From positions 1-38,037 of the IMG/VR virus record IMGVR_UViG_3300002053_000030: a DNA stretch of 38,037 nucleotides. One strand, 5' to 3'. The DNA comes from a virus. The translations under genes and the position numbers were made by a program. How positions within the stretch are numbered: the stretch's first letter is position 1; the number at the start of each line of letters is the position of its first letter. This document shows positions 3,849 through 38,037 of the stretch, one piece after another. Under the pieces are notes generated by a model, which was not told the DNA's origin, ran no database searches, and was given only the letters and a program-made list of their open reading frames with translations.

Positions 3849-4990
3849 CGGCTAATACGGTTCATAGATTTTGCCAGCCAAAGGCGGTCGCCTTTCTTTC
3901 CGCAGCGATCAGCGCAACCGCAACGACCTGTTATGTCGAACCTGGTGGTGCCCAGAGGTTCATTAATGCGGTCAACAATCAAACCGGTGCCGTATACGCA
4001 ACCCTAACCGACCCGACTAAAGCGATCGAAATCGTTAAAATAACGGCCATAAGCGGCAATACATTTACGATAGCGCGCAGCCAGGAAGGAACCAGCAATG
4101 TTGCGTGGCCTGCCGGATCGGTCCTGGTTCAACGCTTAACAGCCGGAAACCTGGACACTTTCTTTCAGAAAGGGAGCAATCGCTCGATTGCCTACAATCC
4201 GAACGGTATTTTGTCGGCTAATTATCCAGGGGAAGAAATCTACCAATCCAATATTTACGATTGCGAAATGAGGTGGTGGAAAAATGTAGGCGGGACGACC
4301 TGGGCGCTTATTGCCGGAGAACTGTGTGATTGGGGGGATGATGTGGAATTTTTCGAACCGGACGCGGCAGACGGTTACCTTTTCACGTTTGAGGCTTATG
4401 CTTCCGGTTGGGCCGCCACTGTGGCAAGGGCCGCAGCGGATGTCGCGTATGATTCTGATATCATAGGAAACCCTACGATTTGGGCCGGGGTAAACGGAAC
4501 GGATTGGTATTACTTGAATCGTTCGTACCTTTATTTCGACTTATCGGCAATCGGAGGGCCAGGCTCAACCATAATTGATGCCATGCTGACCGTATTCGGA
4601 AGAAATTGCAGCGAAAGTTCGAACGCGCAACAAGTCAACGTCTATGAAGGAACTCAAACCGATCCCCTCGCAGTCGGGGATTTTGATGAATTTGAAGCCG
4701 ACTTGTTCTGTACCCTGGATTATGGTTTGGGCGATTTTAGTTATATTGGGCAAGGCGCCCTGGCCGGAACTCAATATGTTACTTCTGACAGTTTTTCTGC
4801 AGCCGGGTTGGCTTACTTGCAGTCAGTAGCGGATGCTTCCGGTGTGGCCATGTTCTGTTTGCGGGATTACTATTATGATGTTTTGGGCAATGCACCGACA
4901 ATAGGATATGATGCCTATTTTACTCATTATTTTGCTGATGAATCAACCGTGGCCTGGCGTCCGCGCCTTATGATCGAATATACAACATAA
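3845..4990 (+). CDS. Tail appendage protein with C-terminal carbohydrate-binding-like (DNRLRE-type) domain
   Basis: A 381-aa protein coupled to the previous gene by ATGA. Residues about 20-155 repeat the previous gene's layout, including FFQKGSNRSIAYNPNGILSA, GEEIYQ and a final GGTTWALI. Residues about 185-381 add a beta-sandwich that resembles DNRLRE/CBM96-type modules (RSYLYFDLSAIGG, IIDAMLTVFG and the closing RPRLMIEYTT). Those modules bind polysaccharides or surface proteins, so this is a candidate adhesin or receptor-binding appendage. The growth of one paralogue by an added binding domain is the notable feature. Assignment is by pattern only. Confidence 0.55.
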   Translation: MTANTVHRFCQPKAVAFLSAAISATATTCYVEPGGAQRFINAVNNQTGAVYATLTDPTKAIEIVKITAISGNTFTIARSQEGTSNVAWPAGSVLVQRLTAGNLDTFFQKGSNRSIAYNPNGILSANYPGEEIYQSNIYDCEMRWWKNVGGTTWALIAGELCDWGDDVEFFEPDAADGYLFTFEAYASGWAATVARAAADVAYDSDIIGNPTIWAGVNGTDWYYLNRSYLYFDLSAIGGPGSTIIDAMLTVFGRNCSESSNAQQVNVYEGTQTDPLAVGDFDEFEADLFCTLDYGLGDFSYIGQGALAGTQYVTSDSFSAAGLAYLQSVADASGVAMFCLRDYYYDVLGNAPTIGYDAYFTHYFADESTVAWRPRLMIEYTT

Positions 4991-13973: not shown

Positions 13974-14180
13974 ATGGCCCTCTTGACGGCAGGCTACTGG
14001 CCGACTGCATATTGGGCAGAAAGTTATTATGCAGACAACTTTTGGCCTGATTATGGGACAGCAGCAGCAGAGGAAGAAGAGTTTGGTGGCGCTCAATTCA
14101 TTAAAAAACCATTTTCATACATCATGGAAGAAGAGGAACTTCTCATCTTCATGCGGGCATTCTTGGAGGTCATAAGTTGA
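13974..14180 (+). CDS. Small aromatic-rich hypothetical protein
   Basis: A 68-aa protein with ribosome site AAGGGG before ATG and a stop overlapping the TTG start of the giant gene. The N-terminal half is unusually rich in Trp and Tyr (TAGYWPTAYWAESYYADNFW), followed by an acidic middle (AAAEEEEFGG) and a short C-terminal helix ending FMRAFLEVIS. Proteins with a repeated 'GYW...YW...YW' opening are common as small virion proteins in phages of this type. Coupling to the giant gene suggests co-expression. No function can be assigned. Confidence 0.5.
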   Translation: MALLTAGYWPTAYWAESYYADNFWPDYGTAAAEEEEFGGAQFIKKPFSYIMEEEELLIFMRAFLEVIS

Positions 14181-17100
14181 GCAGCTTAAGTCATTGCCTG
14201 GAATTACATACGAACCTTTTTTCTGATGAAGAAAAGAATCAAGTCAGGAATGCCGCCGCCGAATATCGCAAGGAAGGATTTGACGCTCAGATTGCCAATG
14301 TGTCAGCCGTGGAAGACATTATCCGGGATCTCGAACAAGAACGAGCGGATATCGTAAAACAGGCAACCGGCAAAAAACCTCCCATAAAACCCGAAGTCCC
14401 GCCAAAGCCGGAAGTGTCCGCGATCGAAGCGGAAATCGCCGAGACGCCTATCGAGGAAATTGAACGGATGATTGAGGAAGCCGCACCGGAAGAAATAGCT
14501 CCGGTTGAAGAGGCTGCGGCGCCGGCCGTTGCGGAAGAAGGGGCCGCACCGGTACCACCGACAGCGCCCAAGCCTCCGACAGAAAAACCCGCCGTGCCGA
14601 AAGCGTCCGATATTGCCAAGAAAGCTGCCAAGGCGGGCGTGCAAGGCGTCGATGAGGCCATTACGGGACTTTACGAACTCTTTGGAGGAAAAGGTGTTGT
14701 TCGGACGTTCCCTGGCGCCATAGACGAAAAAACCTACGCTGCGGCCAAGCCTCACTTTGAGGCGGCCCTGGCAAAGTGGAAAGAAGCCGGAAAGAACCTG
14801 AAAGACCTGGTTCAATTCCTGGTCAACAATTTCGGGAATGGCATCAAGCCTTATATCTCACGCTGGATGCGTGAATTGAAGGGCATAACGGAAATAGAAG
14901 AAGCCGAAGGAGCCAAGGCGCCCACACTCGAAGAAGCCGTCGGGGAAGAGGAAAAAGGCAAGAAAGAGAAAAAGAAAGTCAAGAAACTCAAAGATGTCGG
15001 GGAGCGCCGCTGGAAACGGGCGGGAATGTCTACCGAAGACAGGATCGAAAAGATCACGCTCGAACTGGACAAGGAAATCACCGAAACAGATACCAAAAAA
15101 GTCCTGGCCGCCCTCCAACGCATGACGGTCAAGGCTACCCTGATCCCTACCAATGAATTATCCAAGGATGCTACACCTGGCCTGATCCGATGGTTTAACG
15201 CCATGCGCCGTGACATTGTCGGATTCACCGAGTGGGCCGGCAAGAAATTCGGGGGCCGAAAAGGGTGGGGAAAAAGCTACGAGGACGCCATCCAGGAAGC
15301 TCTCAGCGGCCCTACCGGAAAAGAAGAAGTCCGGAAGATGGCGGCGAAATACATTGCGACCCTGGAACAGCTCGCCGAAGCGATTACCAGCGGCACGACG
15401 ATTTCTCAGGCGCGGGACGCTCTAATCAGGCTGATGGTTGACGAATCGAATTACGAAATCCGCAAACTCGATAATATCGTCAACTTTTACGATCTGTCCA
15501 GCGGCACCTTGGATGGCATCCTTACCGAATGGGGTCAATCGTATACAGATATTGTGAAATACAGCCTCTTCACCATGCAGAAAAATATCCTCACCAAGTG
15601 GACGGACAGGCTGATTGAGAAAGAAAACGATGAGGAAAAGAATCTCAAGATAGTCCGGGAACGACGAAAAATCTTCGATATCGAGACGGATGGTGCCGAG
15701 AGAAAAGGTAAAAACGTAACAGGACAAGACCTGATCGATACGTTCGGCCTTGGTACCGTGGCGTTCGGGAACTGGACGGAAGGCCCGCACAGACAGAAGA
15801 GCGTGAACCTTACGTTCGATTCGCTCTATGACCTGGTGAAAATCCTCGGCGCTCCTGCCAAGGCGGCATCGTACAACATGGAAAGGCGCCTCGGGATCAT
15901 GTACGGTGCCCGAGGGCGCGGAGGGAGAGCGGCAGCGACTTTTCATCCGGAAGACAACACGATCAATCTCACCAAGACACACGGGGATGGCAGCCTGGCC
16001 CATGAATGGGGTCACGGGTTTGATTTTTATTCTAAAGTCAGCATGAAGAACAACGAGAATGAGGAATACCGTTCTTACAACCCGTTCGACGACCTCAAGC
16101 ACGCCTTTAAATTCAAGTACGACCTCAGCAGTATGATGCAGACCGTCGAAGACCTCTTGCGCGGTATTCATTATACCTCGAGGAAAGGTCGGAACCGGCT
16201 CAAGGAAGCCGAGAACTGGATCAAGGATAAATGGGAAAGCGAGTTCGTCTCGAAAACCAGGTTCTGGACGGACGCAATCGGCCTGGATGGCGGGAAACAA
16301 GGCAAATATTGGTCACAGCCGGTCGAGATGTTCGCCCGCGCTTTTGAGGCCTACGTTGCGGATAACCTGGAAAAGGAAAACTACTACCTGGTCGATCCGG
16401 CTTTTGTGGCATCCGGCGCAGTGGAAGAACTTTTCAGGCGGGAGCACGGCGCCTACCCGACTGAAGAAGAACGGGACCGATTCAATGAGTTGTTCAAAGC
16501 CTTCTTCGACGGTATGACCTGGGACGAGAACGGCGTGCCGACCATGAAACCGGATTATGTTCCGGTTACCTTGCAGGAATATCTCTCAGCGAAAGAGAAT
16601 GTCCAAAAAGTCCTGGATACCCTGGAAGATATTTACAAGGCGCTCTATGCCGGAAAACAATCGGAAGACGGCCTTTACTGGTATGCCTATCGGGATACCA
16701 CCCGGGCGCCAGAGATGCAGCCCCAGGGCGTCATGGCGTTCGATGACGAATACAGACAGGAAGGCTTTACCGGCCAAGGCGCTATCGGATATGGAGAAAG
16801 CGTACACCCGGACGATGTGATCAAATACGGTCTGGAACCGATCGTTCATGAAAAGACCGATAAAACTCAGTATTTAGAGGTGGGGGAAGATGGAACAGTT
16901 ATCAGCGATTGGACGACAGGCGGCGCGGCATTGGGAGAGTCATCGGCCCGAGATGGTGAAACATTTAAAGAAGGTGGGGGAGTATCGACTGGCACTGATC
17001 GAGGCGCAGGAGTCGGTGAGGAGGGGGCTGGCGGACCTGGTGTCGAGGAAGGGGGTGAACTTCCAGGCGGCGAAGGAGTTACTGATGACGGAGCGGATTT

Positions 17101-20100
17101 ACCTACCACCGGAGACGGAACTGAAGATACTTCCGAAGTCTCAGATGCCGTTCAGTCAGCCGGACGAATCGACCACACGATCCTCACCACAGACAACCTC
17201 GACCAACGCAGCATTGCCCAGCGATTTACCGATAACATAAGCGCCATTCGGCTCCTTAAACGAATCGAGGAAGAAGACCGGCTCGCCACGCCCCAGGAAC
17301 AAAAGGTGCTGGCCAAGTTTTCCGGTTGGGGGGCACTCAGCCCGGCCCTGGAACATTATCCGCCTGAGGCCTGGCAAAGCCGGGCAAACATGGTCGCGGA
17401 GGTCCTCACGAACGAAGAACTGGAAGCGGCACGGCGAAGTACCATAGACGCCTACTATACGCCGGTCGCGGTCTATGACGCTATTTACCGGACCCTGGCC
17501 AAATTCGGCTTTACGCCTGGCAGAATCCTTTCTCCATCGGTAGGTATCGGGTTGGAGTTCGGGACTATGCCGGATGAGCTCCGCAAGATTTCCAGTTTAA
17601 CCGGAATCGAGATGGACAATATCAGTGCCCGGATTGCCAAGCAGCTTTACCAGAATCAGAGCATCATCAATGACCGGTTCGAGAATGTGTCCATGCCGGA
17701 AAACTTCTACGATCTGGTAATATCGAACGTGCCCTTCGGCGATTCGCAGCCGCACGACCGGACGCATAATCCGTTTCGGTTCAGGATTCACGATTACTTC
17801 ATCAATAAATCCTTGAATCTTACCCGGCCCGGCGGCCTAATGGCGATCATTACGTCCACCGGAACCATGGATAAGGCCAACGCGAAAGCTCGCCAAATTT
17901 TCTCCGAAGAGGCCGAGCTGGTCGGGGCCATCCGTCTCCCGAACGGTACCTTTGTCGGAGCCGAGGCGGCCTGCGACATCTGCTTTTTCAGAAAACGGGG
18001 CGACAATCTCACGCCCATACCGGACAATCCGTTCGTCGAGACAGTCCGCGAAAAGCTACCTTATCTCAATAAAGACGGCACAATACGGGAAACGACCTGG
18101 AAGGCAGAGAGGGATATCAACCAATACTTCAAGGATCATCCCGAAATGGTTCTTGGCACTATGGGCGTTCAAATGGGTCGATACGGCGAGCAAGTCGTGA
18201 CGATCGGTGACAACACGAATGTCGGGGAAAAGATCGATGAAGCGACCAAGAAACTCCCGGACGGCGTTTACACGGAAATCCAGGTCAACCATGAACTGAA
18301 CTTGCTCGAAAATATGCCGAAAGCTGGCGATATTAAGGACGGCGCCTATTATGTTGGCCAGGACGGAAAACTTTACATCAATGACGGCGGCACCCCGATC
18401 GAGTATGAGGAACGCACGCCGACACAGAAAGACCGGGCAAAGCGGATCAGGGCTCTTATTCCGATTCGGGATACGATTCGAGAATTGCTAAGAGGACACA
18501 TTGCCGAAGTATCCAAAGATGAACTCGAAAAATTCCGCAAAATCCTGAACACACAATACGATAATTTCGTCAAAAAATTCGGATGGATCAATTCGCGCAA
18601 GAACGTCATGGCGATCTTTGACGACCCGGACGCCGGTGTATTGCTCGCGCTTGAAAAATGGGATGAAATCGAAGAAACGAGCAAGGGCAAGGAAGCGATC
18701 TTCTCTGAAAACTATATCGCTAAAGTCAAGCCGCCAGAATCGGTCGAAGATATCACGGAAGCCCTGGTTTATTCGCTGAATTATAAAGGCCGCGTGGATC
18801 TCGGATTTATCAGCCAACTTACCGGGGCATCGAGAGACGACGTAGTTGCCAGGCTGAAAGGAAAAATCTACAACGATCCCGAGCGCGGTTATGTGACGGC
18901 CGATGAATATTTGAGCGGGAACGTCAAGCGAAAGCTGAAGACGGCTATTCAAGCCGCCCGGACGGACGAAAAATTCCAGGAAAATGTCGATGCCCTCCAA
19001 ATGATTCAACCGGAAGATATTCCAATCCACGATATTAAAATCAGGATAGGCGCGGCCTGGATGCCGATCAAGCATATCCGAAATTTCATGCTCGACATGA
19101 TGGAAGGGACCGTTCGGAATTTCAAGATCGATCATGTCCCGGATATCGGCAAATTCAATATTGTTTGGACCGGGCCTTCCAATGCGGCCGCGAACAGGAA
19201 TCGACAGGCGGGGGAATCGTCCTATCATGCTACCGATACATGGGGCACCCGCGACGTAAATTTCTTCAAGCTCATGGATTATATCCTGAACGGCGGGTTT
19301 CCAAAAGTTTGGAGGCGGGACGCGTACGGAAATAAATGGTTCGATCAGGCGGCGACTGATACGGCCATTTACAAAATGAGTCAAATCCATGATCGTTTTC
19401 AATCCTGGGTAGCCGAAACGGAAGGCGTTCAGGATGACATGAAAGAAATTTACAATGCCCGGTACAATGCACACGTTGATCGCGTCTTTGACGGTTCTCA
19501 TTTGACTATGCCCGGCAAGGTTCCGGACGCGATCATTAAATTACGCCCTCACCAAAAGAATGCCATCTGGCGGTTTTTGCAGACAGGAGTTGCCTACTTC
19601 GGCCATGAAGTCGGTACGGGCAAGACTTTCACTTTACTCGGTTGCGCCATGGAAGCAAGACGGCTCGGCCTCGCAAAAAAGCCGGTTATTTCCATCAAGA
19701 AAGCTACCATCAACGATTTCAAAACGGCCTTTCAGCAACTTTATCCCGCCGCGAAAGTCCTATTCCTTCATGTGCCGGGCAATAAGGCGAAACGGATAAA
19801 GACGCTCTCGAAGATTGCGACGGGCGATTACGATGCTATTGTGGTCACTCACGAATCATTCGAGAAAATCCCGCTCAGTCCCGAGGGATACGCTCAGACA
19901 ATCAGGGCCGATGTCCGCAAACTCGAGGCGGCCTTGCTCGAAGCGCAACGCCAGGGCGCCGGCCGAGTCACTATCCGGGATTTGGAAAATGCCAAGCAAA
20001 AATTGGAAGACCGGCTTAGTGAAATCCTAGAAAAAGAACGCGATAATATTCCCACGTTCGAAGAACTCGGAATCGATTTGATCCTGATCGATGAAGCCCA

Positions 20101-23100
20101 CGATTATAAGAACCTGTATTTCACTACGAATTACGAAAACGTAAAAGGGATTAAGTCGGGCGAGGTCGTAAAACGCAGCATGGATCTCTATGCCAAGACG
20201 AATTATATGCACAAACGGTTCGGCAGGGGAATCGTATTTGCGTCCGGGACGCCTTTAACCAATAGTGTCGGAGAACTGTTCACCCTTTCCCGGTACCTGC
20301 AACCTAATGAACTGAAGTTCCGAGGAATTGAAACTTTCGAGCCCTGGGCAAACACGTTCGGGATTATCAGCAGCGAAGCGGAGCCGAATCCTACAGGCAG
20401 AGGGTTCAAGATGGTCACCCGGTTCGACCGGTTCATCAATATTCCGGAACTCATGCAGATGGTTCGCGGCGTATTCGATATTATCCGGGTAGGCGATAAA
20501 GACAAGACCGGCATGATCAAAATTCCACGACCTGATATTGCAGGCGACAAACCCCAAAACATAATCGTGCCTCAAAACCCGCAAGTCGCAGAGTATCAGG
20601 ACGAGCTCATGGCCCGCGCGCTCGCTATCAAAGCGGATCCAATGCACGCCGAATGGCACGGAAAACGGGATATTATGCTGCGGATCATTACGGACGGCCG
20701 CAAAATGGCGATCGATCCGCGCCTTGTGGAGCAGCAGAGACAGGATGAAGAGGATACGAAAGTCAATGCGGCATTAGAGAAAATCCTTGATATCTACAAG
20801 AAGTCTTACCCGGCTTACGATTGGGATAAGAACGAAGACTATACTGAAACAAAAGGTGTGCAGTTAATCTTCCTCGACCTTGGAGTGCCGGGCGGGGCTA
20901 TCCCGCACAGTCCGTATACAGACTTGATCGATAAGCTGGTTAAGAATGGCGTACCCAGGAACGAAATAGCCACGATCCATCAAATTCCCTATGGCCCCAA
21001 AGGCGAGACAATGAGGAAAAAACTCTTTGCCAAGGTGCGAGCGGGCGAAATTCGAATATTCATGGGATCCACGCCTAAGATGGGAATTGGAGTAAACATC
21101 CAAACTCGCGTAGTGGCCATGCACCATCTCGATGTGGATTGGAACTATGCCAATTACGAACAGCGTAATGGACGCGGCATACGGTACGGAAACAATATCA
21201 AGGAAGTCCAGATTTATAATTACGGCACTGAAGCGACTGTCGATGCTTTCATGTGGAATACCGTGGCGACCAAGAGCATGGTGCTTGGCCAAATCATGTC
21301 ACTCAATCCGTCCATACGCGAACTGGAAGATATCAGCCGCGATACCATGAACGCCCAGGAATACGTTTCCGAATTGTCCGGCGATCCGCTTATCAAGGAA
21401 CAACTCGAGCTCACCAAAGAAGTTCGCGTCCTCCGGAATGCCAAAGCCGATTTCGATCGAAATAAAATGCGGTCCCGGTCCCGCCTGGCGAATCTGCCTA
21501 AGATCATTGAAGGGAAAAAAGACGAAGTAGAGGCCTGGCAGAAGAAATTCGACCGGTTTAGTCAGATCAAAGCAATTCAGATAGGAGAAGAGTTCTACGA
21601 CCTCGAAAAAGAGGGCGGCAAGGCCAATGATGCAACCGATAAATTTATAAAGGATAAAACTGTCATCCGCGCCCTGAAAGGCGATATCGAATCCCGCAAA
21701 ACGATCGGCCGGTTCGGTTACATCGAAACGGAAGAAGTGCCTTACATCGAGGAAAAGGAAGTCAAGAAAAAGGACAAAGACGGCAAACCGATACTCGATA
21801 AGGAAGGCAAGCCGGTCACTGAAATTCAGAAGATCGAGAAGACCAAAAAGGTCAAAAAATTCGTTCCGTTAGCCCCCCACCTGCGGTTGATGTATAGCGT
21901 GTTTCAGGCATCCCCAATGTTTGAATTTTCCGCTACGGCCATGGGTGGGGATACGGCTACATTCAAGCCGGAAAACGGCGTGAAGCACGTCGTTACCAGA
22001 GTCGTGACCGGCATTCAAAACCTGATCGACGAAACGAACGCGGAAATCGATAAGTTCGAAAAGGAAATCCCGATCATTGAAGCCAAAGTAGACGCCAAGT
22101 TCGACAAGCAGGAAGAGCTCGTAACCAAGGAAGCCCGGCTTCATACAGTCACCCAGGAATTACTGGAACGACAACAGCTAGAGGAACAGGCGGTCAGGCA
22201 GGGGCGCCATGGCGGGCCTACGTTGCCGGGCGGCGATACGGTCCTTTCCGCACAAGGAATAGAGGAAGTCGAAGAAGGTACTGTTCGGAATATTGCGACC
22301 GTGGCCCGGAACGTCAGTAATGCCCTCAGGAACGCTTTGCCACCTGAGGTTTTGAATAGAATTACGATTGAACTCTCGCCCTGGCTGGAACTGGAAGATT
22401 ATTTCAAATCGGGAGCGGCTAAAAAGTCGTTGGAGGAAGCCGGCATCAAAGAAGGCCAGAAATACAGGATATACGGAGCGACCAGCTTCACGGATAAGAT
22501 GGAAGCGATCGTAAGAATCGCTTTTAATCACGATCGATCCCCTGAATACACGGCCTATCATGAAGCACTCCATGTTGCCATGCGGTGGCTTTTGCCCCAG
22601 GCCGAGTATGACCGCTTGTTGAAGTATTTCAAGGGGAACGAAGAGAACGCCGCCGAGGCCTTTGCCGGGTTCGCCATGAAACGCAAAGGCGCCGAGCTGA
22701 AAGGTTTTCCCGGCTATGTGCGCGGGCTTTTCCTGAAAATCAAAAGCCTGCTTGTCAAGATTCGAAGCGCCCTGCAAAAGAAGGGGTTCACCGATCCGGA
22801 AGCTATTTTCGAAAATATCATGATCGGTCGGTATAAACCACTTACCGAGAGTGAAACGCGCGCCAGGACGGAAGAGGCCATCCTATCCACGAAACCGCCG
22901 CCGGATCCGGTCAAGGAGAGGGCTCAGGCTTACATCGATGCCATCAACCAGATGGCGAAACAGAAGAACGCCAGTGAGGCAACGAAAGCCAAAGCTGCCC
23001 GGATCAAGCGGGAACAGGATTATTTCGATCAAGGCGGGTTCGTACAGGATGTAGGTGATATATTCAAGTCAGTCAAGTCGGTCATGAATAAGCGTGTCGA

Positions 23101-25906
23101 TGATTTCCGGCAAAAACCCGACACGGCCTGGTTCCAGAGAATGTTTCAGACACCGGAGTTTTACTTTGAAGAAATAGACGCGGCAAAACGTGTATACGAT
23201 GCCGCCCTGGAACGGCCCGACGACCTGAAAACGCAATATAACGACATTACCGATCATGATAATCATATTGTGAAAATCAAGAAACTCAAGAAAGAAAGGA
23301 AAGAGGAATACAAGAAGCTGAAACGATTCATCACTTGGGCCGACCGGAACAAATTCGTGGCGACAAATGAAGACCTCAAGAAGGCCAAGTTCAGCGATCA
23401 AGCCATTGATGCCTGGCGTGCGTACCGGAAGATCATGGATAACGCCTGGATTAAACTCCATACTGACATGGTTAATCTGCTTGCCAAGTATGAATCGAAA
23501 GGCATGAAGCCGCCTGATATTGTCGTGTGGGAAGGCGATAAACGGGTAAAAATAAATCTTCGCATGGCCCTTGCCCGCATGGGCGATATGCGCGGGTACT
23601 ATGCGCCCAGGATCCGAAAGAGCGGACGGTTTACCCTGGTTGCCCGTAAAGACGGAACGAACCCATGGTTAATCATGGGGGATTCGAAGAAACTGCTTCA
23701 AGCGCGCGGTGTTGGTTTCGAAAAGCGAGGCTATAAGGTCAAGATAGGCAAGACCAGACAACTCAGTGAAGACGTATTCGAGTACGGTGCCCGTACACTC
23801 GACCTGCAGAACATAATCAATGCGGCCCTCGGAGATATCACAAAGGAAAACATTGGGCTTTCATTTGATCAATTCAATTTAAACGGTTACCGGGAAACGC
23901 GGCCGGGAGGGGCGAACTATTTTGTGGTGCGCGGGCCGACCACCAAAAAAATGAACGAAGTATTCAAGGCCTTTGGCGGCCGACATTACAGCTTTCCGAA
24001 AGGAACCGCTAATGCTTGGCACTTTTCCGATCCGTCAGCCGATTTTGAGGTTAAGCTCTTGAAGAGCCTCGCGGCACAGGCCGGCATTCCAGGAGCTACA
24101 GAAGCCGATATGCTTTTCGCCTATGCCTTGGCAACGCAAGTGGCGAACTTGGTCAAAGAGCGCGGATTCAGACAGCATATGGTGAAACGTGCGGCAACGG
24201 TCACTGAAGAGGATGTCTGGTTAGGGTATGAAGAAGATCCGCTTTTGGCCGCTTCGCAGTATGCCTCCAATGTGTCGGCCGGAATTGCAAAACGGAACAT
24301 GGCTTCCAAGATGGTCCGCGCCATATCCGGCACCGACCTGGGCCCGGAAGAATATGATAGTTTCGAGGACTACCTCGAGGGCGTTAAAGAACGCCGGATA
24401 GATGCCATTGAACAGCCGAACATTTACCGCGACGTGAAAAGCTACATGATCGAAATGCTTCGCAACGAGGAGTTTTCCGATAGAGTGATCGGGTACGTGA
24501 AAGGCTTGGCCGTCCTGAAATATCTCGGGTTCAGGGGATCCTCGGCCCTGGTCAACCTGACCGCGCTGGCCACGTCGGTACCGTCGTCCATGAACACGTA
24601 TGCCAATATCGACCTTAAAGATGTACCGAAATATCTGGTCATGGGTATAAATGCGTCCCTGAAATATCGGAAGCACCTGAAGGGCGAGAGAACCGACCTC
24701 GATGATGACACGATCAAGATGTTCGATACGCTCTACACGAAGGGCTGGGATGAAGCTCAATATAACATGGAGGCCATATCGGTCCTGAGAAGCCGCCTGG
24801 GTGGCGGGTACGATAGTATCATCAATGGCGCCATGCTGATGTTCGGGCAGACGGAACGACTAAACCGAATCGCTACGATAGCCGGGACATACCTCGGGGC
24901 GCGGGATACCGGCATGGGTTATGATGAAGCCGTCGAAGTGGCCAAGAAAACAAGTGACCGCAGCCATGGCGTGTACGGAAAGAAAACCCTGCCTTATTTG
25001 GCACAAGGCAAGAATCCATTCGCGCAGATAGCCAAGATGTTCTACGTGTTCAGCAAATTCAGCCATACCTACCTGCAGAATATGTATACAATCGGATTCA
25101 AGGAACACAATAAGAAAGGCCTGCTTTACATGATGCTTGCACCGGCAATCCTGGGGGGCGCAGGGGCTATGCCTATCATAGGAAAACCTTTAATCGCCGT
25201 CTTAGGTCAAATTTTATCCGAGCTCAGGGGAGATGAGGATGAATGGGAAGAAGGCTTTTATTCATGGGTCTTCGACTTATTCGGCGATAATGCTGAAAAA
25301 TTCGCCCGATACGGCCTGCCAGGATTCGCCGGCATTTCTTTAAGGGGTTCGCTGCAGATCGACTTTATCGGCAATTTCCCGATGAAAATACCAGAATTGC
25401 TCGGAGCGCCCGGAAACGTCCTGGTCGATATGTACGAAGGCGGCAAGATGATCTACGAAGGACAAACTTATCGTGGAATCGAAAAGATTGCCCCGCGAGC
25501 TATCAGCTCGGCCATGCAGGGATATCGAGAAGCGAAATACGGCGTGACTTCCCAGCGGCAAACGCCCATTACATATGAGGACAAGCAAATCTGGCCCGAC
25601 ATGATCGATACGATCATGAGGATAGCCAATTTCAATCCGTCCGGAATTTCCCGCCTCAAGGAGAAAAAATGGGCCAGGACGAAGCAAATAAGGCACTACA
25701 GGGATAAACGCAGCGATTTGTATACCAGGGTTAAGGCCTTCTATCAAAAGCCGCAAGGCAGGCGATCTGAACGTGAATGGGCCGATATTTTAGCCGATAT
25801 CAATGACTACAATGAAACGATAAAAACAAAAAAACTCCTTGGCATTCAGGGTATCAGCGAAATTACCCACAAAACATTAAAACAGTCGATCAGGGCAAAA
25901 CAGTAA
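14177..25906 (+). CDS. Giant polyvalent protein: two zincins, DarB-like methyltransferase and SNF2-type helicase
   Basis: 3,909 aa from a TTG start (GGAGGT 7 nt upstream; TTGA overlap with the previous stop), 31% of the window. Order by residue: helical N-terminus; acidic/Pro linker (66-150); helical domains (152-515); LPD1-like zincin (516-780) with HEWGH 609-613 and EMFARAFEAY 717-726; Gly/Asp linker (905-995); N6-adenine-methyltransferase-like domain with SPSVGIG 1119-1125 and SNVPFG 1183-1188; helicase with HEVGTGKT 1810-1817, DEAH 1972-1975, SGTP 2023-2026 and QRNGRGIR 2329-2336; charged coil; second zincin with HEALH 2795-2799 and E2827; GYYAPRI domain near 3138; LPD38-like hydrophobic helices (3450-3690). 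It is probably ejected with the DNA to counter host defences or restructure the entering genome. Confidence 0.85.
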   Translation: MSSLSHCLELHTNLFSDEEKNQVRNAAAEYRKEGFDAQIANVSAVEDIIRDLEQERADIVKQATGKKPPIKPEVPPKPEVSAIEAEIAETPIEEIERMIEEAAPEEIAPVEEAAAPAVAEEGAAPVPPTAPKPPTEKPAVPKASDIAKKAAKAGVQGVDEAITGLYELFGGKGVVRTFPGAIDEKTYAAAKPHFEAALAKWKEAGKNLKDLVQFLVNNFGNGIKPYISRWMRELKGITEIEEAEGAKAPTLEEAVGEEEKGKKEKKKVKKLKDVGERRWKRAGMSTEDRIEKITLELDKEITETDTKKVLAALQRMTVKATLIPTNELSKDATPGLIRWFNAMRRDIVGFTEWAGKKFGGRKGWGKSYEDAIQEALSGPTGKEEVRKMAAKYIATLEQLAEAITSGTTISQARDALIRLMVDESNYEIRKLDNIVNFYDLSSGTLDGILTEWGQSYTDIVKYSLFTMQKNILTKWTDRLIEKENDEEKNLKIVRERRKIFDIETDGAERKGKNVTGQDLIDTFGLGTVAFGNWTEGPHRQKSVNLTFDSLYDLVKILGAPAKAASYNMERRLGIMYGARGRGGRAAATFHPEDNTINLTKTHGDGSLAHEWGHGFDFYSKVSMKNNENEEYRSYNPFDDLKHAFKFKYDLSSMMQTVEDLLRGIHYTSRKGRNRLKEAENWIKDKWESEFVSKTRFWTDAIGLDGGKQGKYWSQPVEMFARAFEAYVADNLEKENYYLVDPAFVASGAVEELFRREHGAYPTEEERDRFNELFKAFFDGMTWDENGVPTMKPDYVPVTLQEYLSAKENVQKVLDTLEDIYKALYAGKQSEDGLYWYAYRDTTRAPEMQPQGVMAFDDEYRQEGFTGQGAIGYGESVHPDDVIKYGLEPIVHEKTDKTQYLEVGEDGTVISDWTTGGAALGESSARDGETFKEGGGVSTGTDRGAGVGEEGAGGPGVEEGGELPGGEGVTDDGADLPTTGDGTEDTSEVSDAVQSAGRIDHTILTTDNLDQRSIAQRFTDNISAIRLLKRIEEEDRLATPQEQKVLAKFSGWGALSPALEHYPPEAWQSRANMVAEVLTNEELEAARRSTIDAYYTPVAVYDAIYRTLAKFGFTPGRILSPSVGIGLEFGTMPDELRKISSLTGIEMDNISARIAKQLYQNQSIINDRFENVSMPENFYDLVISNVPFGDSQPHDRTHNPFRFRIHDYFINKSLNLTRPGGLMAIITSTGTMDKANAKARQIFSEEAELVGAIRLPNGTFVGAEAACDICFFRKRGDNLTPIPDNPFVETVREKLPYLNKDGTIRETTWKAERDINQYFKDHPEMVLGTMGVQMGRYGEQVVTIGDNTNVGEKIDEATKKLPDGVYTEIQVNHELNLLENMPKAGDIKDGAYYVGQDGKLYINDGGTPIEYEERTPTQKDRAKRIRALIPIRDTIRELLRGHIAEVSKDELEKFRKILNTQYDNFVKKFGWINSRKNVMAIFDDPDAGVLLALEKWDEIEETSKGKEAIFSENYIAKVKPPESVEDITEALVYSLNYKGRVDLGFISQLTGASRDDVVARLKGKIYNDPERGYVTADEYLSGNVKRKLKTAIQAARTDEKFQENVDALQMIQPEDIPIHDIKIRIGAAWMPIKHIRNFMLDMMEGTVRNFKIDHVPDIGKFNIVWTGPSNAAANRNRQAGESSYHATDTWGTRDVNFFKLMDYILNGGFPKVWRRDAYGNKWFDQAATDTAIYKMSQIHDRFQSWVAETEGVQDDMKEIYNARYNAHVDRVFDGSHLTMPGKVPDAIIKLRPHQKNAIWRFLQTGVAYFGHEVGTGKTFTLLGCAMEARRLGLAKKPVISIKKATINDFKTAFQQLYPAAKVLFLHVPGNKAKRIKTLSKIATGDYDAIVVTHESFEKIPLSPEGYAQTIRADVRKLEAALLEAQRQGAGRVTIRDLENAKQKLEDRLSEILEKERDNIPTFEELGIDLILIDEAHDYKNLYFTTNYENVKGIKSGEVVKRSMDLYAKTNYMHKRFGRGIVFASGTPLTNSVGELFTLSRYLQPNELKFRGIETFEPWANTFGIISSEAEPNPTGRGFKMVTRFDRFINIPELMQMVRGVFDIIRVGDKDKTGMIKIPRPDIAGDKPQNIIVPQNPQVAEYQDELMARALAIKADPMHAEWHGKRDIMLRIITDGRKMAIDPRLVEQQRQDEEDTKVNAALEKILDIYKKSYPAYDWDKNEDYTETKGVQLIFLDLGVPGGAIPHSPYTDLIDKLVKNGVPRNEIATIHQIPYGPKGETMRKKLFAKVRAGEIRIFMGSTPKMGIGVNIQTRVVAMHHLDVDWNYANYEQRNGRGIRYGNNIKEVQIYNYGTEATVDAFMWNTVATKSMVLGQIMSLNPSIRELEDISRDTMNAQEYVSELSGDPLIKEQLELTKEVRVLRNAKADFDRNKMRSRSRLANLPKIIEGKKDEVEAWQKKFDRFSQIKAIQIGEEFYDLEKEGGKANDATDKFIKDKTVIRALKGDIESRKTIGRFGYIETEEVPYIEEKEVKKKDKDGKPILDKEGKPVTEIQKIEKTKKVKKFVPLAPHLRLMYSVFQASPMFEFSATAMGGDTATFKPENGVKHVVTRVVTGIQNLIDETNAEIDKFEKEIPIIEAKVDAKFDKQEELVTKEARLHTVTQELLERQQLEEQAVRQGRHGGPTLPGGDTVLSAQGIEEVEEGTVRNIATVARNVSNALRNALPPEVLNRITIELSPWLELEDYFKSGAAKKSLEEAGIKEGQKYRIYGATSFTDKMEAIVRIAFNHDRSPEYTAYHEALHVAMRWLLPQAEYDRLLKYFKGNEENAAEAFAGFAMKRKGAELKGFPGYVRGLFLKIKSLLVKIRSALQKKGFTDPEAIFENIMIGRYKPLTESETRARTEEAILSTKPPPDPVKERAQAYIDAINQMAKQKNASEATKAKAARIKREQDYFDQGGFVQDVGDIFKSVKSVMNKRVDDFRQKPDTAWFQRMFQTPEFYFEEIDAAKRVYDAALERPDDLKTQYNDITDHDNHIVKIKKLKKERKEEYKKLKRFITWADRNKFVATNEDLKKAKFSDQAIDAWRAYRKIMDNAWIKLHTDMVNLLAKYESKGMKPPDIVVWEGDKRVKINLRMALARMGDMRGYYAPRIRKSGRFTLVARKDGTNPWLIMGDSKKLLQARGVGFEKRGYKVKIGKTRQLSEDVFEYGARTLDLQNIINAALGDITKENIGLSFDQFNLNGYRETRPGGANYFVVRGPTTKKMNEVFKAFGGRHYSFPKGTANAWHFSDPSADFEVKLLKSLAAQAGIPGATEADMLFAYALATQVANLVKERGFRQHMVKRAATVTEEDVWLGYEEDPLLAASQYASNVSAGIAKRNMASKMVRAISGTDLGPEEYDSFEDYLEGVKERRIDAIEQPNIYRDVKSYMIEMLRNEEFSDRVIGYVKGLAVLKYLGFRGSSALVNLTALATSVPSSMNTYANIDLKDVPKYLVMGINASLKYRKHLKGERTDLDDDTIKMFDTLYTKGWDEAQYNMEAISVLRSRLGGGYDSIINGAMLMFGQTERLNRIATIAGTYLGARDTGMGYDEAVEVAKKTSDRSHGVYGKKTLPYLAQGKNPFAQIAKMFYVFSKFSHTYLQNMYTIGFKEHNKKGLLYMMLAPAILGGAGAMPIIGKPLIAVLGQILSELRGDEDEWEEGFYSWVFDLFGDNAEKFARYGLPGFAGISLRGSLQIDFIGNFPMKIPELLGAPGNVLVDMYEGGKMIYEGQTYRGIEKIAPRAISSAMQGYREAKYGVTSQRQTPITYEDKQIWPDMIDTIMRIANFNPSGISRLKEKKWARTKQIRHYRDKRSDLYTRVKAFYQKPQGRRSEREWADILADINDYNETIKTKKLLGIQGISEITHKTLKQSIRAKQ
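16876..16888 (+). promoter_or_regulatory. Ribosome binding site for nested gene in the giant gene
   Basis: AGAGG at 16876-16880 and GGGGGA at 16882-16887 precede the ATG at 16890 by 9 and 2 nt respectively. The spacing of AGAGG is good for initiation of the +1-frame ORF within the giant gene. Confidence 0.4.
16890..17240 (+). CDS. Nested out-of-frame small protein inside the giant polyvalent gene
   Basis: A 116-aa ORF in the +1 frame relative to the 3,909-aa gene, covering its residues about 905-1021. The first 80 residues read as a normal alpha-helical protein: LSAIGRQAARHWESHRPEMV, KHLKKVGEYRLALIEAQESV, then a helix ending ELLMTERIYLPPETE. The 'A..HW...RPxMxxxLxxxGxLxxAL.xAQ ... LPPE' pattern recalls small free-standing phage proteins of unknown function. 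The last 35 residues are Ser/Thr/Pro-rich, where the host frame re-enters conserved methyltransferase sequence, so the tail is probably not conserved. In the overlap the host frame is a low-complexity Gly/Asp/Glu linker. Its translation is not proven. Confidence 0.6.
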   Translation: MEQLSAIGRQAARHWESHRPEMVKHLKKVGEYRLALIEAQESVRRGLADLVSRKGVNFQAAKELLMTERIYLPPETELKILPKSQMPFSQPDESTTRSSPQTTSTNAALPSDLPIT

Positions 25907-34277: not shown

Positions 34278-35207
34278 TTAATCCTCCTTGAAGGCCTGGT
34301 CAGATTCGTAAGCATCGCATTCTTTTTTTATATTGCAGTAACTTTCACATTTCCATTCCTGCATATCGGTATCACATTTTGGGGGCATGATTCTGTTTTC
34401 AAAGGCCTCATAAAGAATCCTTATTTTTGGTGTCATAACCGACAAGGCTTTCTCATCAGTCCATACCGGGACCGGATTGACCATGTAATCCGTCTCCCAT
34501 TTGATTTTTCCGGATGGAAAGACTTTCACCTGCCTTGGTGTGCCGACCATGTTTGACCTTGCTCCCTTTTTTTCAGGTGGGTTTTTGAGGTACTCTGAAA
34601 AGGTGGTGATCTTTCCGGTTTGAACAACGTCCATGAGGGTCATGTAGACAATCACGATTTTATGCGCTGGCAGGCCGTTTTTGCGACAAATGTAAGCATA
34701 ATCATTGGTTTGCTCAATGTGCTCCTTCTTTGCGCCGTCCTGAATGATATAACGCAAACCATTATCACCGATACTTTTCCAATCCTTGAGGATCCCCTGC
34801 TTGAGAAATCGAAGGGTATAAACGTCCATTTGTCCCGAAATAGGTACCCGAATTCCGTCTCCGATATCTACATCGACGTAGAGGCGCTTTTCGCATTCCC
34901 GCCTGTATTCCTCGGTGTAAACATTCGGCCGTTCCACAATCTTGTGAATGAGCGTTCCTCGGAGACTCCACCATTGGCTTTTAGGGGTCGCTGCATAATC
35001 TGTGATTCTCTCGAGATAAACATTGCGGAGACAATTCGTTAGGGCTGATACGGTAATGTTTTTTCCGGTATGTTCTTCAGCTTGGTCTTCATTCTTTTCG
35101 AACATGGCTTCCCGGATTTCCAGGTCAAAACATGGGTGAGTGCAGGCGAGGCATTCCTCGAAGGTCTTTTCTTCCCTTGTGGGGCAAATACATTTAGTCC
35201 ATGGCAT
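34278..35207 (-). CDS. Cas4/RecB-like PD-(D/E)XK nuclease with Cys cluster
   Basis: A 309-aa protein. Motifs of the family: His88 in GTLIHKI, Asp128 in GQMDVY, Asp142-x-Lys144 in LKDWKS, and Gln166-x3-Tyr170. Cysteines at 59, 287, 291 and 297 match the 4Fe-4S arrangement of Cas4 and AddB-type nucleases (one Cys before, three after the catalytic core). There is an additional N-terminal cluster at 6, 8, 19, 22 and 26. It probably resects DNA ends in phage recombination. Neighbours SSB and the RecF/SMC-like ATPase support this. No Cas genes or CRISPR are present. Confidence 0.75.
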   Translation of the reverse strand: MPWTKCICPTREEKTFEECLACTHPCFDLEIREAMFEKNEDQAEEHTGKNITVSALTNCLRNVYLERITDYAATPKSQWWSLRGTLIHKIVERPNVYTEEYRRECEKRLYVDVDIGDGIRVPISGQMDVYTLRFLKQGILKDWKSIGDNGLRYIIQDGAKKEHIEQTNDYAYICRKNGLPAHKIVIVYMTLMDVVQTGKITTFSEYLKNPPEKKGARSNMVGTPRQVKVFPSGKIKWETDYMVNPVPVWTDEKALSVMTPKIRILYEAFENRIMPPKCDTDMQEWKCESYCNIKKECDAYESDQAFKED

Positions 35208-37292: not shown

Positions 37293-37468
37293 GTTTCCTC
37301 CAATTCTTGTCTGCATTTTTCAGAAGTCCATGTTGGGATGATCTGCAGATGAAATCCCATGGCTTGCGCTACCGCTATCAGTTTCTCGACGTGCTCATCG
37401 CAGATGAAGGATTCGTCCCTTCCCGGCCATGTAAAGCGATATCTCGCAACATTCTGGCACTTAGGCAT
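37274..37468 (-). CDS. Small zinc-finger-like protein, 64 aa
   Basis: Start at ATG 37468, with GGAGGGAG just upstream; the longer frame from 37492 lies mostly inside the previous gene. The product has MPKCQNVARYRFTWPGRDES, then FICDEHVEKL. The C...C..H order suggests a zinc knuckle. The helical C-terminus contains WTSEKCRQELEETCLRKE. It overlaps the ATPase gene by 19 nt. The pattern is common in small phage proteins without known function. Confidence 0.5.
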   Translation of the reverse strand: MPKCQNVARYRFTWPGRDESFICDEHVEKLIAVAQAMGFHLQIIPTWTSEKCRQELEETCLRKE

Positions 37469-37733
37469 CGCTCCCTCCATCTCCGAATACATTCAGTTGG
37501 CTTTCATCTACCGTGCCGGACGCAGAATCCTTGACGCGCTCGGATACAAAATTGATCGTCGTGTTGATTTCATTCCCTTTTGCTCCCGGCTTTATCTTGA
37601 CCGTAAAATTTATGGTAATGCTGTCTGCCTCGGTCTTAAGGTAGGCTTCCTCGATTGCTTCCTGGTGTTCCTGTAGCAAAATAGCAATCAGATTTCCCGC
37701 TTCCTGTACCGTTTTCATTCCTATCCTTGCCAT
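37461..37733 (-). CDS. Hypothetical protein, 90 aa
   Basis: Good ribosome site AAAGGAG before ATG. The N-terminal helix MKTVQEAGNLIAILLQEHQE and ADSITINFTVKIKPGAKGNE, then INTTINFVSERVKDSA, suggest an alpha helix followed by a beta-hairpin. The Asp/Gly-rich end overlaps the next start by 8 nt. The 'ITINFTVKIKPG' form is frequent in phage early regions as an unknown conserved protein. It may be a recombination accessory by context. Confidence 0.55.
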   Translation of the reverse strand: MARIGMKTVQEAGNLIAILLQEHQEAIEEAYLKTEADSITINFTVKIKPGAKGNEINTTINFVSERVKDSASGTVDESQLNVFGDGGSDA

Positions 37734-37760: not shown

Positions 37761-37833
37761 TGGTTGCGGGACTCGGAGTTGCACCGAGAGGGGCAGGAGT
37801 ATGAACCCTACCTGGGAACTGTCCCTTCCCGCT
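37761..37833 (-). tRNA. tRNA-Met(CAU)-like element with degenerate D-arm
   Basis: Reading the - strand: acceptor AGCGGGA (37833-37827) pairs with TCCCGCA (37771-37765) except the first pair A-A. The anticodon stem TAGGG/TCCTG (two G-U) holds the loop TTCATAC with CAT at 37803-37801. T-stem CTCGG/CCGAG is perfect, with loop TGCAACT, and the CCA end is encoded. The D-arm is abnormal: GGGA/TCCC with only a 4-nt loop and no G18G19; T-loop position 55 is G. Length is 73 nt. It is probably a tRNA-like structure of unknown use or a decayed tRNA. Confidence 0.55.
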
Positions 37834-37836
37834 CAA

Positions 37837-38007
37837 TTATTGTTTATTCTTCGGTTCCCATTTCTTTCCGCATAGGATCCCGACGATTGCCCCTTTGCAA
37901 AGCAACTGCTCCGAATCGCAAATTCGATAAAGGCCGCATTCCATGCAGGAGGCATAGTCGCTTTCATCGAACAATTTCTGAATGATGGTCGTTACTTTAT
38001 CTGCCAT
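37837..38007 (-). CDS. Small Cys-rich protein, 56 aa
   Basis: ATG preceded by AGGGGA. The product begins MADKVTTIIQKLFDESDYAS and has cysteines at 21, 24, 30, 37 and 46 (CMEC, IC, LLC, LC), a likely metal-binding protein, and ends KKWEPKNKQ. The stop lies 3 nt before the tRNA-like element. It is a short but well-formed frame of the early operon. Its function is unknown. The rest of the operon lies beyond the right edge. Confidence 0.55.
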   Translation of the reverse strand: MADKVTTIIQKLFDESDYASCMECGLYRICDSEQLLCKGAIVGILCGKKWEPKNKQ

Positions 38008-38037
38008 GGTTTCCCCTTCTAGGCTGGCAATGGCCTA

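Follow-up and report, generated by a model that had tools for sequence, protein, structure and literature searches.

An ordinary tRNA has a contact between G18 and pseudouridine 55 and a pair between G19 and C56; one of the residues in the former contact has been called universally conserved in tRNAs (PMC4810234). The elbow of the tymovirus tRNA-like element is reportedly almost the same as that of tRNA (PMC4810234). G55, A18 and phages all go unmentioned in a review of T-loops (PMC7912444). Recognition of the bacterial initiator by methionyl-tRNA formyltransferase relies on a 1x72 mismatch, helped by A73, G2-C71, C3-G70 and G4-C69; R11:Y24 is a further bacterial initiator feature (PMC9976931). 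It has been noted that where tRNA-fMet is a VapC target, phages as a rule avoid having a gene for it (PMC10264068).

We analysed a virus record of 38,037 bases, referred to below as the window. Near its right end there is an RNA gene that, with a probability of about two in three, we characterize as a phage initiator-type tRNA(Met, CAU), located in an early operon and having an alternative elbow; it would putatively be charged, formylated and used in initiation by the host machinery.

The element and its operon

The initial annotation had placed a tRNA-Met(CAU)-like RNA at 37761-37833. These coordinates proved exact. A covariance model of 40 phage relatives, with the window excluded, gave one full-length match in the window (51 bits, E 1e-11). 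The minus-strand letters, 37833..37761, are AGCGGGA-AG-GGACAGTTCCC-AGG-TAGGG-TTCATAC-TCCTG-CCCCT-CTCGG-TGCAACT-CCGAG-TCCCGCA-A-CCA, where the dashes indicate a rough division and the D-stem pairs GGGA with TCCC. The acceptor, D, anticodon and T arms of the 73-nt RNA are all complete, and its folding (-32.7 kcal/mol, z -3.3) beats 199 of 200 shuffles. The CAT triplet in a 7-nt loop, the encoded CCA, the 4-nt D-loop, G55 and the A1-A72 mismatch, all described earlier, are present (Table 1). The element yields no match in Rfam at gathering thresholds; in a permissive scan the sole family was the tymovirus tRNA-like RF00233, with 25 bits (gathering threshold 40) and E 0.0049.

Table 1. Positions in the window of the tRNA-like element, its parts and the adjacent reading frames
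Feature	Positions	Strand	Remarks
56-aa Cys-containing ORF, same early operon, directly upstream	37837..38007	-	no Pfam family
Putative initiator-type tRNA(CAU) gene, 73 nt with encoded CCA	37761..37833	-	only match of covariance model R1
Acceptor 5' strand, A1 G2 C3 G4 G5 G6 A7	37827..37833	-	A1xA72 mismatch, other six paired
D-arm, GGGA-CAGU-UCCC	37814..37825	-	A18 = 37820, G19 = 37819; without U8, without A14
Anticodon arm, UAGGG-UUCAUAC-UCCUG	37794..37810	-	CAU = 37803..37801; G29:C41, G30:C40, G31:U39
T-arm, CUCGG-UGCAACU-CCGAG	37772..37788	-	G55 = 37782, C56 = 37781
Acceptor 3' strand UCCCGCA (66-72), A73, encoded CCA	37761..37771	-	
90-aa ORF directly downstream, AAAGGAG before start	37461..37733	-	no Pfam family

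The gene occupies a gap in the operon, 3 nt past the stop codon of the 56-aa ORF and 27 nt short of the ATG of the 90-aa ORF; with a stop codon on one side and a ribosome site on the other, the placement fits a tRNA gene. The minus-strand run goes on via small ORFs to an SNF2-type helicase, and a primase-helicase gene is divergent, on the opposite strand. The closest relative record, contig L012, overlaps the right end of the window by 639 bases and adds 12 kb of phage; as the overlap is 99.8% identical, it provides no independent variation. ARAGORN called no tRNA in either the window or L012, and the only match of the family covariance model in each was this element, which makes it the sole tRNA-like gene found in ~50 kb. 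When the region was compared by blastn with 50,697 phage records, nothing matched. Relatives sought via the neighbouring 473-aa protein were not found either, so the position of the gene is not comparable across relatives of this phage.

A gap of ~300 nt upstream of the 56-aa ORF (610-967 of L012, minus strand, with its edge at ~38010-38037 of the window) carries three stable hairpins in tandem, each closed by a long stem (z -4.55); two of them begin GCUGGCAGUGGC, and no Rfam family was assigned to them. Elsewhere in the same early run, a 309-aa protein (34278-35207, minus strand) resembles PHROG 1706, 'CRISPR/Cas system associated', and an exonuclease family. An open reading frame of 3,909 aa (14177-25906, plus strand) takes up nearly one-third of the record.

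Relatives and the acceptor stem

Relatives were found by pattern scans of viral contigs that specified the T-loop, the CAU loop and the ACCA end. At least 73 distinct G55 CAU RNAs with clean structures were collected, forming at least 54 clusters at 80% identity; among the matches listed, the closest to the window element was 71% similar. Dozens of unrelated phages are thereby predicted to have the same kind of gene, which standard tRNA finders often miss: ARAGORN detects 47 of 73 class members among the matches listed. The distance from anticodon to T-loop in the class is 13-17, and a pattern with a 17-27 gap was discarded as it missed the class, its 13 viral and 5 bacterial-contig matches being mainly chance or other RNAs. 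In 1,191 sampled bacterial genomes from three phyla the G55 CAU class was not found (two pattern matches there were not tRNA-like on inspection), while a control pattern for the ordinary elbow matched 24 of 31 bacterial genomes.

Forty relatives, with the window left out, were used to build covariance model R1. Covariation and conservation, which the initial annotation had proposed as checks, are both strong: 93.4% of paired cells in the alignment are standard, changes on both sides are seen in 18 of 21 pairs, and the covariation score for these diverged relatives is 0.783 as compared with 0.179 for shuffles and 0.10-0.12 for slid structures. Because the search pattern included A37, ACCA and the letters of the T-loop, their conservation is partly imposed and is not counted as evidence. 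The acceptor and the stems were not in the pattern.

Among the 40 relatives, 1:72 is unpaired in 37 and 2:71 to 7:66 are paired in all, with G:C at 2:71 in 39, C:G at 3:70 in 39 and G:C at 4:69 in 35; the window element has A1xA72, G2:C71, C3:G70, G4:C69 and A73. The earlier remark that the A1-A72 mismatch recalls initiator tRNAs thus extends to the whole class. As a control we used 128 phage CAU tRNAs whose T-loop has the ordinary U55. The 1:72 mismatch was observed in 57/73 members of the G55 class (matches listed) versus 40/128 controls (Fisher 1e-10), and GCG:CGC in 60/73 (matches listed) versus 33/128. A 1x72 mismatch combined with G2:C71, C3:G70 and G4:C69 is the bacterial formylation signature, and this points to an initiator-type tRNA.

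Several observations count on the other side. Position 1:72 is pairable in 16 of 73 G55 members (matches listed), against the initiator reading. The window lacks the initiator GGG:CCC at 29-31:39-41 (see Table 1 for its pairs). This feature occurs in 5/73 of the G55 class (matches listed) and is also rare in phage initiator types with an ordinary elbow (2/40); three G:C pairs in any orientation are found at these positions in 14/73 of the class (matches listed). At 11:24, U11:A24 is present in 26 of 40 relatives; the short D-arm of the window leaves its numbering ambiguous, and R11:Y24 is not evident. In the class, Y11:R24 together with the incomplete GGG:CCC would argue against a textbook initiator. 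Genes for peptide deformylase and formyltransferase showed no association with the class (1/48 and 2/48 class records).

Y11:R24 and the incomplete GGG:CCC are elongator-like, and with its CAU anticodon the element could be taken for a functional phage tRNA of another type, either tRNA-Ile2(CAU) of the lysidine kind or an elongator tRNA-Met, whose acceptor end is frayed by chance. We consider this unlikely. Elongator-type phage CAU tRNAs among the U55 controls have a paired 1:72 (88/128), absent from the window, and only 7 of these 88 have GCG:CGC. Furthermore, a paired U55 CAU tRNA exists along with a separate G55 one at ten loci (L048, L051, L085, L089, L102, L106, L120, L148, L161 and L163).

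Two initiator-like CAU tRNAs with an ordinary elbow were seen in named phages. One, in Mesorhizobium phage vB_MseS-P1 (L406; PP232116, 6211-6284), lies under an annotated CDS named transcriptional repressor; the other, unannotated, sits in the gap that follows the terminase gene of Xanthomonas phage Elanor (L405; ON189045, ~4047-4116).

The A18/G55 elbow and the small D-loop

The D-loop was outside the search pattern for the U55 and G55 sets, except in the first scan. All 128 phage CAU tRNAs with U55 have GG in the D-loop region, while all 73 G55 CAU RNAs (matches listed) have AG there, 62 of them without GG (p 7e-41). Other isotypes at the same loci follow the same rule: 300/301 with U55 have GG (428/429 for the U55 phage tRNAs of both sets together), and 34/39 with G55 have AG without GG, the remaining five having GG somewhere in the scored stretch. 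We interpret the loss of G18 and the substitution of G55 for pseudouridine 55 as one coordinated change. Near-minimal pairs illustrate it: CTGGCAG with TTCGACT in phage Philippe versus GCAGCAG with TGCAACT in L072, and AACGGTA with TTCGACT in phage Jay2Jay versus AACAGTA with TGCAACT in L067. In the window G19 and C56 are present along with A18 and G55, and the canonical G18/pseudouridine 55 and U8:A14 are missing. The D-loop had been said to lack G18G19; G18 is indeed absent, but G19 is there, with A18-G19 replacing G18-G19 and matched to G55.

A sample of G55 T-arms with the anticodon left free contained CAU (10), Tyr (7) and several other isotypes. As the swap occurs in several isotypes, it is a general phage option and not an initiator signal by itself. 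The idea that G55 excludes EF-Tu, suggested by analogy with a staphylococcal non-proteinogenic tRNA-Gly (PMC4052509), was dropped since phage elongator isotypes also have G55. At L003, L004, L005 and similar loci we observed RNAs that end with GGAC-xxGGGTGCAACTCCCxx-CACCTCCACCA; they look like phage tmRNA 3' ends and share the G55 T-loop.

D-loops as short as 3-5 nt, most of which contain A-G, were found in 22/70 G55 members (matches listed) versus 7/125 of the U55 set; by these counts the 4-nt D-loop of the window is a recurrent trait of a subclass. U8 is present in 4 of 22 small-D-loop members versus 40 of 48 other G55 members (matches listed; p 2.6e-7), and its loss together with the A14-bearing loop appears as a second coordinated change. 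Four such relatives (L165, L097, L084 and L066) resemble the window in scoring against RF00233 and not against RF00005; L165 is inside an ordinary phage tRNA array, and L097 lies 4 nt from a canonical tRNA. Standard annotation misses small-D-loop members; hence phage initiator genes are under-counted.

These comparisons bear on the word 'degenerate' used for the element by the initial annotation, which we do not retain: the elbow departures are coordinated in relatives, as also in phage tRNAs of other isotypes, and the tiny D-loop recurs. A captured tRNA gene decaying into a pseudogene would be missing bases such as U8, A14 and G18 and would be passed over by a tRNA finder, as is the case here. 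Still, each departure is seen again in relatives, where it is a coordinated change, the acceptor and T-stems of the window are fully paired except for 1:72, and the stem covariation in 40 relatives largely refutes decay; we find a pseudogene hardly credible.

Proposed role and known systems

If the element is an initiator-type tRNA, RNase P and 3' processing would free it from the polycistronic early transcript, and host MetRS would charge it via CAU and A73. The 1x72 mismatch and the 2-4:69-71 pairs would allow formylation by host methionyl-tRNA formyltransferase and exclusion from elongation; IF2 could then bring the tRNA to the P site, supplementing or replacing the host initiator in infection. 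An A18-G55 contact with the kept G19:C56 may hold the L-shape without host-made pseudouridine 55 and Gm18. With an elbow that does not need these modifications the tRNA could act immediately, and it may also be less visible to elbow-reading enzymes.

Codon compensation is the usual account of phage tRNAs. At 35 of 73 G55 loci (among the matches listed) no other tRNA was present in the stretch examined, and in whole records scanned with the model the class tRNA was the sole match in 6 of 15 (28-67 kb), besides shorter records. An initiator tRNA as the only tRNA of a phage does not fit codon compensation and points to translation initiation or to initiator-targeting defences: it may be an extra supply of initiator, or may take the place of one that host nucleases have cleaved.

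The latter possibility has a variant in which the RNA is a decoy or a nuclease-resistant stand-in for the host initiator, with resistance or soaking-up being selected; the anticodon arm of that initiator is cut by some VapC toxins. Phage tRNAs have been proposed to evade host anticodon nucleases (PMC10264068), and the window has C38-U39 versus A38-C39 in sampled bacterial initiators, C39 being kept in 21/73 of the class (matches listed). Ordinary phage CAU tRNAs, however, fail to keep C39 as well (23/88 of paired U55), and a pure decoy has no need of the 1x72 mismatch with the G2:C71/C3:G70/G4:C69 set. We give this variant a slim chance; a replacement that resists cutting is in keeping with the initiator tRNA. 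Nothing here supports the decoy, mimic or mRNA-processing roles suggested earlier over an ordinary role in translation.

A broader idea can be put forward tentatively, as possible but doubtful. The A18/G55 elbow, which stands out in initiator-type tRNAs (often the sole tRNA in the sequence examined) and is present in many phage isotypes and apparently tmRNA ends, might escape TruB (pseudouridine 55), TrmH (Gm18) and elbow-reading host or defence factors, and give the phage its own initiator supply. The matched elbow replacement across phage isotypes makes the roles of pseudouridine 55 and Gm18 testable in natural tRNAs.

With bacterial initiator tRNA-fMet the window element has in common CAU, the 1x72 mismatch, G2:C71, C3:G70, G4:C69, A73 and the encoded CCA. 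It differs in having A18/G55 for G18/pseudouridine 55, a 4-nt D-loop and G31:U39, in lacking U8 and A14, and in that R11:Y24 is not evident. The tRNA-Met genes of Stenotrophomonas phage Philippe and Streptomyces phage Jay2Jay have an initiator-like acceptor, as does the G55 class, but they keep GG and TTC, are surrounded by many tRNAs and are annotated merely as tRNA-Met. Among cultured phages, one of seven inspected records was a clear G55/A18 case, the records returned having mostly an ordinary elbow. This is the tRNA-Met of Brevundimonas phage vB_BpoS-Kikimora (ON529857, 154048-154124), which, like the window element, has A18 with G55 (C1xT72 acceptor, CCAGTAG D-loop, TGCGAAT T-loop); unlike the window, it has a D-loop of normal size, in a very large genome (312,615 bases).

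The tymovirus valine tRNA-like structure (RF00233) has, as the window does, a CAGU D-loop and a UGCAACU T-loop, and so the same A18/G55 elbow letters. One could suppose that the element is an mRNA structure of this 3' type, a processing or stability site and not a tRNA: RF00233 is its best Rfam match, as it is for the four relatives named above, and it lies between two genes of one operon. We rejected the assignment as the score is below the gathering threshold and the pseudoknot is absent. The 7-position acceptor is ordinary, AGCGGGA pairing directly with UCCCGCA, the anticodon is CAU and not Val CAC, relatives stand in tRNA arrays, and the common feature is limited to the A18/G55 elbow and the small D-loop; an mRNA structure is very improbable. 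The parallel with tymoviruses is structural only, and it is likely that the same structural solution was reached twice, by convergence, with no common descent implied.
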